A stretch of 64,000 bases of DNA. It comes from Acinetobacter baumannii. Lineage in GTDB: Bacteria > Pseudomonadota > Gammaproteobacteria > Pseudomonadales > Moraxellaceae. Under the pieces are notes generated by a model. The model was not told where the DNA came from. It searched no databases and saw only the letters and a list, made by a program, of their open reading frames with translations. The DNA lies in NCBI RefSeq assembly GCF_016508585.1, contig NZ_JADVOP010000010.1:62001-126000 (forward strand). The letters run 5' to 3'. Below, in pieces: positions 11,826 through 60,266 of this stretch. Position numbers and translations under genes: made by a program. Each line of letters begins with the position of its first letter. Position 1 is the stretch's first letter.

Positions 11826-11900
11826 AGGGGCGTCGCCAAGTGGTAAGGCACCGGGTTTTGATCTCGGCATCCGTTGGTTCGAATCCAGCCGCCCCTGCCA
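11826..11900 (+). tRNA. tRNA-Gln (anticodon TTG), copy 1
   Basis: A 75-base tRNA including an encoded CCA end. Acceptor stem AGGGGCG pairs with CGCCCCT; the anticodon stem CCGGG / CTCGG encloses the loop TTTTGAT with anticodon TTG; the T arm contains GGTTCGAATCC. It resembles E. coli glnU/glnW closely. The gene begins 4 bases after the ispE stop. Its sequence appears identical in all three copies of the array. Confidence 0.97.
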
Positions 11901-11931
11901 TCATTTTCATCTGTATAGATCGTTGTATTTT

Positions 11932-12006
11932 AGGGGCGTCGCCAAGTGGTAAGGCACCGGGTTTTGATCTCGGCATCCGTTGGTTCGAATCCAGCCGCCC
12001 CTGCCA
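11932..12006 (+). tRNA. tRNA-Gln (anticodon TTG), copy 2
   Basis: Same 75-base sequence as copy 1 with encoded CCA, separated from it by a 31-base AT-rich spacer without a clear promoter, so it is probably processed from the same precursor as copy 1. Confidence 0.97.
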
Positions 12007-12056
12007 TTTTCTCAAAAAAGACAGAACATGGTATTTGCATTTAATGTTGATTTACC

Positions 12057-12085
12057 TTGACAGAAACATGCAAAAACACTAAAAT
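12057..12085 (+). promoter_or_regulatory. Near-consensus sigma-70 promoter inside the tRNA-Gln array
   Basis: A perfect -35 box TTGACA (12057-12062), a 17-base spacer and a -10 box TAAAAT (12080-12085) lie in the 90-base spacer between tRNA-Gln copies 2 and 3. Transcription would start near 12092, about 5 bases before copy 3. It probably drives tRNA-Gln copy 3 and prs separately from the ispE-linked copies. Confidence 0.8.
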
Positions 12086-12096
12086 TCTGCCGCATT

Positions 12097-12171
12097 AGGG
12101 GCGTCGCCAAGTGGTAAGGCACCGGGTTTTGATCTCGGCATCCGTTGGTTCGAATCCAGCCGCCCCTGCCA
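12097..12171 (+). tRNA. tRNA-Gln (anticodon TTG), copy 3
   Basis: Third identical 75-base tRNA-Gln with encoded CCA. It lies immediately downstream of its own strong promoter and 36 bases upstream of the prs start codon, so tRNA and prs mRNA probably share a transcript. Confidence 0.97.
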
Positions 12172-17368: not shown

Positions 17369-17378
17369 AAATCTACAT

Positions 17379-17533
17379 CGCTTCAGGGCGGGGTGTAATT
17401 CCCCACCGGTGGTAAATTGGACCGATTTTCAATCATGATCCAACAGCCCACGAGCGAATCACATTCAACAGTGGTTTGCAGATTTGGTGAAATACCAAAG
17501 CCGACGGTATAGTCCGGATGAAAGAAGACGACG
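17379..17533 (+). promoter_or_regulatory. FMN riboswitch (RFN element) in the ribB leader
   Basis: All RFN core blocks are present in order: AGGGCGGGGTG and CCCCACCGGTGGT near 17385-17413, AGCCCACGAGCG near 17445, GGTGAAATACCAAAGCCGACGG near 17486, and AGTCCGGATGAAAGAAGACGA ending near 17532. FMN binding lowers expression of riboflavin genes. The aptamer is about 110 bases upstream of the ribB start. A hairpin at 17546-17569 with a short following T run may be part of the expression platform. Confidence 0.95.
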
Positions 17534-32873: not shown

Positions 32874-33275
32874 TATAGGCAACCTGCTTTAAAACTCATA
32901 CAGTAAAAAATAATTTCTCTTGATCAATACAATGAATATATTGTTGAATCATTAAAAGCTTTCATTGCCACACTTTATATCAAAAGTTTATACAGATCTG
33001 CTTAGGCGATGCTTCACTCTTGCGCTGCAAACAAAGCAGTGCCTTGTTTTTGCTCAGATAAAAAGATAACAAAAAATTTTCACTAAGCAAAGGGTACATC
33101 CCATCCCTCCACTCAACATGGCGACATCCATGTCGCCTCACGATAGCACGACCATTCATGATTAAAAAATGCAAAAAAAAGAATGATCAAAATCTTCTAA
33201 AAAGTGTGAGGTTCATTGGATATCAATGATTGATATCAAAATCAATTGCATGAATAATTAGGTGGTTTGACTATA
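32874..33275 (+). repeat. MITE-like repeat, copy 1 (about 400 bp)
   Basis: It matches copy 2 (52144-52540) across its length and copy 3 (60067-60266, minus strand) in its left half. Left end TATAGGCAACCTGC; right end, read inward, TATAGTCAAACC: imperfect terminal inverted repeats. Inside are a perfect 8-bp-arm palindrome GGCGACAT-CC-ATGTCGCC (33120-33137) and a degenerate AAACAAAGCA/TGCCTTGTTT pair. The 64-codon minus-strand frame at 32980-33174 lies within the repeat and is not regarded as a gene. Confidence 0.75.
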
Positions 33276-52143: not shown

Positions 52144-52540
52144 TATAGTGAATCTGTTGAAACACTCATATAGTAAAATATCATTTCTCTTGATCACTAA
52201 AGTAAATGTAATCAATGTATTGTTTAATGATTTTTAGCTTGCACTGCCACGCTTTAAATCTAAACTTTAAATCGGTTTGCGCAGGCAATGGCTCACTTTT
52301 CAGAGATGAAAAGTGACAAAAATCTTTCGTTTAACAGGTTTCTTGCGCTACAAACAAAGCAATGCTTTGTTTTTGCTCATATATCCCCGCTCAACTTGGC
52401 GACATCCATGTCACCTCACGATAGCTAAACCATCTATGATTCAAAAGTGTAAAATAAATGAGTCATCAAAACCCTATAAAAAGCATAAATTTCACTGGAT
52501 ATCAAAGTACTTGTATGAATCATTAGACAGTTTGAGTATA
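52144..52540 (+). repeat. MITE-like repeat, copy 2 (about 400 bp)
   Basis: The best-preserved copy. Left end TATAGTGAATCTGTTGAA; right end, read inward, TATACTCAAACTGTCTAA, so terminal inverted repeats of about 18 bp. Shared blocks with copy 1 include ATTTCTCTTGATCA, a CAAACAAAGCA segment and the GGCGACATCCATG block (52398-52415). It also has a perfect 10-bp-arm palindrome AAACAAAGCA-A-TGCTTTGTTT. The short ORF at 52313-52546 lies inside and is spurious. Confidence 0.78.
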
Positions 52541-59725: not shown

Positions 59726-60066
59726 AAAAACCCCTTAATTATTCGAATATTTTTAGCGTAAGACGCTTTATTTACAAATGCTCTAGTGATAGGAAAAGTA
59801 ATTCAGCTACAGAGCTTGACACGACTTTGGTAAGTAATTTTTTTAAGTTTTACCAACAAGTCTTATTAGATAATAAGAAATATTATCATTCTAATTCAAG
59901 TCTTTTTTTAATATCAGCTACAAACAACTCTATTTGCTACTCATTGTTTTCAATTCTAAAAAAGCACTTCATTGCTGACTAAAAAATGATGATTGCTGAA
60001 CTATGACATTGGTCATACGAAATACAAAGGTGGTCTTCGGTCTTCTTTTTTTTTTGGTACTGTTTT
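59726..60066. other. Non-coding region upstream of the carbonic anhydrase gene
   Basis: About 340 bp without credible coding frames. It contains a small inverted repeat TTGGTA/TACCAA (59827-59856) around a T-rich centre and ends at the left boundary of repeat copy 3. It presumably includes the carbonic anhydrase promoter near 59730-59800. Confidence 0.5.
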
Positions 60067-60266
60067 TATAGTGAGTTCACCTTAATCATGATTTATTTGT
60101 ATCTTTTCATCTCTGAAAAGAGAAGCATCACCCACGTCAATTGATTTAAACTTTAGATGTAAAGCGTAGCAGTATAAGCTTTGGATCATTAAACAATCTA
60201 TATCACCCTGATTTTATTGATCTGGAAATTATATTTACTGTAAGAGTTTTCAATAGTTTGATTATA
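60067..60266 (-). repeat. MITE-like repeat, copy 3 (about 200 bp, internally deleted)
   Basis: Read on the minus strand it starts TATAATCAAACTATTGAA and continues with blocks matching copy 2: CAGTAAA, TTGTTTAATGAT, ACGCTTTA and TTTTCAGAGATGAAAAG. The other end reads TATAGTGAGTTCACC inward. The part with the GGCGACATCC and AAACAAAGCA palindromes is missing. Its ends match the termini of copies 1 and 2, which suggests internal deletion of the same element. Confidence 0.7.

Follow-up and report, generated by a model that had tools for sequence, protein, structure and literature searches.

A MITE with IS630-like ends and a structured core found across Acinetobacter

Three copies of a repeat family in the window

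The window, by which we mean the whole stretch of 64,000 nucleotides that was analysed, contains three copies of a repeat family, as follows.

32874..33275, + strand: MITE copy 1, 402 bp, between convergent genes (sequence, shuffle test)
52144..52540, + strand: MITE copy 2, 397 bp, both ends above shuffles (sequence, own-genome search, shuffle test)
60067..60266, - strand: MITE copy 3, 200 bp, with an internal deletion and a weak 3' end (sequence, shuffle test)

Beside copy 2 lies a gene of the Porphyromonas-type peptidyl-arginine deiminase family (PF04371, 51038-52069) and beside copy 3 one of the eukaryotic-type carbonic anhydrase family (PF00194, 59006-59725). Elsewhere, the window has three consecutive tRNA genes with identical covariance scores (11826-12168) and an FMN riboswitch, found in the Rfam scan (17376-17533). 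A preliminary description of this DNA had placed the three copies at exactly these coordinates and had stated that none carries a transposase, which agrees with the absence of any open reading frame of at least 90 amino acids from all three.

With copy 2 as the query, the host genome (G000, a draft of 4.34 Mb in 111 contigs) yields 35 matching stretches at E ≤ 0.01. This places the family far beyond chance and, together with near-full copies in a second species, rules out a chance or assembly artefact. Among the 30 of these 35 stretches that were read, 24 are copies or fragments of the family, four belong to a second repeat family and two match the middle only. The longer matches are about 61-83% identical to copy 2, and the family is thus old. 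When its consensus was searched in 149 Acinetobacter genomes, with up to four places scored per genome, nine gave a match at E ≤ 1e-10, and near-full copies were seen only in G000 and in A. guillouiae CIP 63.46 (G078), which has 43 matching stretches, nine of them spanning the whole query and four more three quarters of it. G062 has a single stretch of 262 nt without the ends, the remaining matching genomes have 38-64 nt, and the next nearest genome as judged by one gene (G107) has just two 36-nt pieces of the family. The consensus has no match in either the plasmid or the phage collection, and a plasmid or phage origin of the MITE was rejected on these grounds. The second repeat family, unrelated to the first, is about 330-350 bp long, has ends GGGTCTGTTGACA...TGTCAACAGACCC, is apparently flanked by TA and occurs in G000, G078, G058 and G092; it was seen at L022, L024, L036, L044, L084 and L085 (about 1359-1700 of each locus), and relatives at about 67% identity are found in A. 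baumannii records.

Terminal ends, target sites and IS630 relatives

The MITE ends are of the form TAGTCAAtC..., with TATAGTCAATCTGTTGAAAAACTCATACAG on the left and GTATGAATAATTAGGCGGTTTGACTATA on the right. Their recognition was scored against 100 shuffles per locus. In the 24 copies of G000 the 5' end was recognised in 20, the 3' end in 11 and both in 10, eight of these 10 having TA at both outer ends; in the 15 copies of G078 the corresponding counts are 12, 10 and nine, with TA at both outer ends in six of the nine. TA thus occupies both outer positions in 14 of the 19 two-ended copies, which measure 320-435 bp and fall under the MITE size limit of about 600 bp. The matching ends that the preliminary description saw in all three window copies are real, but the 3' end of copy 3 fails the shuffle control, with 15 of 23 letters matched where the best shuffle has 16, so that the second end of this copy rests on about eight bases.

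An empty site with a duplicated TA, which the preliminary description had proposed to look for, was found once with base precision. Copy L023 is located at the stop codon of a gene, and its flanks, joined with one TA, read ...GGTATC-TA-TAATTTT. Three orthologs read CAGTATTTATAATTTAT (G078), GGGTATTTATAATCTAG (G062) and GGGTATTTATAATTTCG (G005), and comparison of the L023 flanks with these three shows that TA was duplicated at this site. The core of the element is absent there in G078 and G062, and G005 has a core without TATAGTC ends slightly further downstream. The other 26 of the 29 orthologs listed have different ends, show lower resemblance or align only further upstream. L004 was considered as a second precise empty site and set aside, since its orthologs stop at slightly different codons and are consistent with such a site at most; the core is absent from all 29 other loci there. 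Both flanks of the window copies were found, for copy 1 in G078, G107 and G066, for copy 2 in G078 and G062 and for copy 3 in G078, and the orthologous gaps that were inspected, in G078 (copies 1-3) and G062 (copy 2), lack the element. The G078 gaps are element-free but too diverged for base-level alignment, and the window copies were therefore rejected as base-precise empty sites. Around the syntenic region, a search of 18 stretches from ten genomes (359,921 bases in all) with the core model gave no match.

TA-flanked inverted ends were sought in 30 loci with an IS630-type (DDE_3) transposase, and 58 control loci were used for end matching. At nine of the 30 loci, between 22 and 26 of 30 letters agree with the MITE right end, against a maximum of 21 and a mean of 18.1 in the controls, and in eight of the nine this match sits at the mapped terminus of the insertion sequence, the terminus of L112 being unmapped. 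The left end reaches 21-24 matching letters in the same nine loci, against a control maximum of 21. Four of them (L098, L104, L105 and L108) show the expected pattern, each MITE end having its own IS end on the proper side, whereas five have their best match to the left end at the same IS terminus as that to the right end. The remaining 21 loci belong to other IS630 subgroups or have no clear ends. The IS630 subgroup in question is about 890 bp long and resides in sister species. Its member L104, which encodes HTH_Tnp_IS630 and DDE_3 domains, has ends TATAGTAAATCTGTTAAAAATAGCATACAC and GTATGAATAATTAAACGGTTTTACTATA with single TAs outside. On plasmids, relatives of L104 carry the annotation IS630 family transposase and those of L096 are labelled IS630-related, two of the latter records also bearing an IS5 label. 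In A. guillouiae, a degenerate IS630 with MITE-like ends adjoins a MITE fragment.

DDE_3 is present in 59 of 173 genus genomes. The preliminary description had suggested a comparison of the ends with those of resident insertion sequences: no DDE_3 (IS630) transposase was found in the G000 draft genome, and IS630 elements with similar ends occur in sister species. With such a transposase undetectable in its draft host genome, the element is an old and orphaned MITE of the RUP type. The earlier proposal of a non-autonomous family served by an unseen, TA-targeting transposase gains support from the IS630 ends in sister species and from the one empty site. That description had counted two outcomes against a mobile family, namely an interior shared without common ends and a lack of empty alleles; instead, copies with common ends and an empty allele were found.

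The structured core within and beyond the MITE

The interior of the MITE is a multi-hairpin element of about 155 nt with strong compensatory pairing and a small pseudoknot. In it, hairpins ii (CACTTTTSARRGATSAAAAGTG), iv (GTTGGGCGAGGGGTACATCCTATACCCCCGCCCAAC) and v (GGCGACATCCATGTCGCC) are accompanied by a short helix between distant segments (GCC with GGC) and by the linker ACAAAAATCYTTTG, which hardly varies. Two alignments were used. For alignment A2 (29 sequences, including two from the MITE), the RNAalifold prediction has 30 pairs, of which 15 are changed on both sides. When 33 pairs are counted, including four between the loop of hairpin ii and the linker, 98.3% of the cells pair, against a shuffle mean of 87.3; 16 pairs have changes on both sides, against 3 or 4 in slid controls, and the covariation score is 0.367 (slid controls 0.06-0.09). 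Alignment A3 reduces relatedness, with 28 copies, nearly all from different loci, none ending in TATAGTC and at least six ending in TATACC. Here 90.4% of the cells are paired, 18 of 35 pairs have changes on both sides (slid controls 3-10) and the score is 0.308 (slid controls at most 0.125). The pseudoknot pair in A3 columns 73 and 96 is GC in 16, AU in nine, UA in one and other in two of the 28 copies. Further pair types, one of five covariation measures, are at shuffle level (225/500 on A2 and 449/500 on A3). On A3, most cells of three inner hairpin iv pairs fail to pair (16, 23 and 20 of 28), which is probably misalignment. The core is a conserved structured element, with compensatory base changes above controls on both alignments. 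The folding energy, as z against single-base shuffles, is weakly low for window copies 1 and 2 (-2.3 and -2.2) and reaches -6.8, -6.4 and -4.5 in three other copies. Hairpin iv is in places swapped wholesale behind the same gene with flanks alike (L248, L252 and L253 against L255; L241 against L254), and these swaps between the copies of different species suggest replacement between paralogs.

Model R2 was built from A3, and thus without TATAGTC-ended rows. In the window it matches the three copies and nothing else. The parts are as follows.

32960..33146, + strand: core in copy 1, hairpin ii split by an extra module (model R2, E 8.6e-16)
33019..33055, + strand: extra module of copy 1, a hairpin (CTTGCG...TTTTTGCTC) inserted where hairpin ii has its loop region
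33120..33137, + strand: hairpin v (GGCGACATCCATGTCGCC), copy 1 (sequence)
52239..52424, + strand: core in copy 2, hairpin iv split by an extra module (model R2, E 1.2e-22)
52294..52315, + strand: hairpin ii (CACTTTTCAGAGATGAAAAGTG), copy 2, whose loop can pair with the following linker to give the pseudoknot (sequence, covariation)
52342..52378, + strand: extra module of copy 2, a hairpin (CTTGCG...TTTTTGCTC) located where hairpin iv has its loop region
52398..52415, + strand: hairpin v, copy 2, with one pair broken (sequence)
60066..60177, - strand: core remnant in copy 3, hairpins iv and v lost (model R2, E 1.1e-9)
60103..60120, - strand: hairpin ii, kept in copy 3 (sequence)

All three window copies show decay. 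Copies 1 and 2 are each interrupted by a foreign hairpin, and copy 3 is short of two hairpins. The shortest copy had been described as lacking the internal palindromes, which is right for two hairpins but not for the CTTTTCAGAGATGAAAAG hairpin, which is kept. The extra module (CTTGCGCTGCAAACAAAGCAGTGCTTTGTTTTTGCTC, 37 nt) sits in the loop region of hairpin iv in copy 2, L002, L003 and L041 and in that of hairpin ii in copy 1; it replaces the linker in L072, and in L045, L048 and L215 it takes the place of the linker and also of some or all of hairpin ii. It also lies inside the unrelated repeat with ends GGGTCTGTTGACA (for example, in L022). With up to three mismatches it occurs at six places in G000 and 29 in G078, the reversed pattern at none. 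This 37-nt hairpin is thus seen at various positions in two unrelated families, as if inserted into, or exchanged between, hairpin loops.

Parts of the MITE consensus match other species without the ends. A DNA comparison with a 131-nt core, at E ≤ 1e-8, detected it in 107 of 173 genus genomes. The covariance model R1, built from A2, was run against 348 family genomes, about 175 of them of the genus, with up to eight places scored per genome and stricter filters; it matched in 152 at E ≤ 1e-4, of which 150 are Acinetobacter and two (G179 and G181, of another genus) are marginal. Rfam 15 gave no match over the core at 30 loci in two scans at E ≤ 1, the window itself having been scanned at gathering thresholds. 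The core also matches, at the DNA level and with no annotated feature under it, six A. baumannii records that were submitted as plasmids, of which some are chromosome-sized; the three that were read all match the core covariance model too. Pairs of cores lie side by side in L284 (1501-1656, - strand, and 1666-1816, + strand, inverted) and in L249 (1499-1654 and 1680-1779, direct).

The orientation of the core was compared with that of its neighbours at 67 loci without TATAGTC ends, grouped into 29 by upstream protein and using simple ORF calls. The upstream gene is co-oriented with the core in 24 of the 29 groups (13 both forward, 11 convergent); four groups are both reversed and one is divergent. 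When the seven TATACC-ended groups are removed, 19 of 22 remain co-oriented (11 forward, 8 convergent), with three reversed. The MITE copies (n = 38), on the other hand, have no such orientation: 11 are forward, 10 reversed, 15 convergent, one divergent and one unassigned. The difference between the forward-to-reversed ratios, 13:4 without TATAGTC ends and 11:10 in the MITE, is suggestive only. A common function of the upstream proteins is not apparent by eye.

Origin of the core, alternatives and known systems

We propose that the family is a MITE moved by an IS630-type element, which carries a captured, genus-wide structured core and has spread it to new intergenic sites; we put the probability of this reading at roughly 0.7. 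First of all, an IS630-family transposase, acting in trans, would have recognised the TAGTCAAtC-type ends that the copies bear. Second, going by what is typical of the IS630 family, the element would have been cut out and inserted at TA, with the TA duplicated; the copies are now decaying, and the source of the transposase is undetectable in the draft genome. Third, the core exists across Acinetobacter without TATAGTC ends, as a rule directly behind a gene and in the sense direction, where it may act in mRNA 3' ends, its structure shielding or marking the 3' end. Finally, the MITE would have captured this core and then carried the module to new intergenic sites.

A different reading, which we consider unlikely though it deserves serious attention, is that the core was always part of a MITE, that the end-less copies are decayed relics and that the structure was kept for the transposition or replication of the element. 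In favour of this view, the core is seen in two end families: apart from the TATAGTC ends in G000 and G078, the genomes G154, G086, G050, G063 and G072 have cores at different loci with fixed flanks of about 41 nt upstream and about 79 nt downstream, which end in TATACCATTC (or TAATACCATTC) and GATTGGTATA. From their sequence, these TATACC ends look like a second terminal-repeat family carrying the core, and some end-less copies may therefore be MITE relics. Both TATACC ends match well at seven loci, corresponding to five places; two loci have mainly one end or a weak match, two are partial and the others are at shuffle level, so that most other loci lack a TATACC trace beyond shuffled controls, contrary to what relics of such an element would lead one to expect. 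Terminal repeats around other core copies were also sought and not accepted, the single-copy search being unconvincing and the end consensuses mostly at shuffle level. The dispersal and number of the core copies also fit relics, as does the tree, in which the MITE cores, the A. guillouiae copies without TATAGTC ends and one G005 copy form a clade of 15 (98/96), within which the MITE cores are not separated from the end-less A. guillouiae copies. This one supported clade makes a capture in this lineage likely, in either direction; a single origin of the MITE-borne cores was considered and dropped, as the tree gives no resolution. Several loci, however, keep the structure behind the same upstream gene in many species, which is not expected of a dead relic, and the end-less copies are sense-biased (13:4, or 11:3 without the TATACC groups) compared with 11:10 in the MITE, which again is suggestive only.

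It is also conceivable, at decidedly lower odds, that the core acts as DNA, in the form of a cruciform or of protein-binding sites, with the covariation reflecting DNA hairpins. Near-perfect palindromes with conserved loops would suit such a role. The ratio of G-U to A-C is 24:6 on A2, which favours RNA, but 17:9 on A3 (p 0.08), which is not significant, and 4:7 in the pair columns of A3; with the excess unclear on A3 and reversed by columns, the argument for a particular strand, and thus for RNA, is weak. The sense bias relative to the upstream gene nevertheless speaks against a DNA element, and so does the pseudoknot pair, which covaries with the linker and not inside a palindrome.

REP/BIME arrangements combine dispersal at gene 3' ends with inverted pairs, and the genus-wide spread of the core at gene 3' ends, together with the inverted pair in L284, would agree with a family of this kind that has its own enzyme (for example, a RAYT-type transposase) and acquired IS630-like ends as a late addition. 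We regard this as rather improbable, given that the core unit is longer, pseudoknotted and conserved in sequence. That the family is a plain MITE with a meaningless interior is very improbable: the window copies are decayed and one is short of most of the core, but an interior present in 150 genus genomes with compensatory changes contradicts it.

Beyond the captured-core reading of this family, it is at even odds, in our estimate, that Acinetobacter, including A. baumannii, has a new, genus-wide class of RNA elements with a pseudoknot, situated at the 3' ends of mRNAs. MITEs with at least two end types, one of them IS630-type, would have captured these elements and would serve as their vehicles, placing a finished 3'-UTR module behind further genes. 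If so, the genus, with a major hospital pathogen among its members, would possess a many-copy class of structured RNA and would supply an unambiguous instance of a conserved structured module travelling in a transposable element. The spread of regulatory RNA parts by MITEs in bacteria would thereby become testable at defined loci.

No description of the MITE or of the core was found in the literature searched. The one MITE of Acinetobacter considered for membership, MITEAba12, was rejected as unrelated, being 111-114 bp long with ISAba12-like ends and a 9-bp duplication (PMC6382973). REP/BIME sequences (PMC2817692) are likewise dispersed intergenic hairpin repeats, whereas the core is longer, conserved in sequence and has a pseudoknot. 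ERIC repeats are placed at the 3' ends of Yersinia genes and Correia elements mostly upstream of genes (PMC10969869); the Acinetobacter core, on the other hand, lies downstream. The Correia/NEMIS elements of Neisseria resemble our family in that their ends begin with TATAG, their target is TA, their transcript is folded and their core is conserved (PMC2649163, PMC2229807). They differ in the end sequence that follows TATAG. RNase III binds them where their ends pair; the Acinetobacter core, by contrast, has its own internal hairpins and a pseudoknot. The closest parallel on the MITE side is RUP of Streptococcus pneumoniae, which is short and non-autonomous, has IS630-like ends, targets TA and is mobilised by IS630-Spn1 (PMC2229807). 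RUP is 107 bp long, with no structural or functional signature reported, whereas the Acinetobacter MITE is about 400 bp long and its core also occurs free of the ends. On the features examined, the MITE part conforms to IS630-mobilised elements such as RUP, and judging by its ends it was probably mobilised in trans as well.
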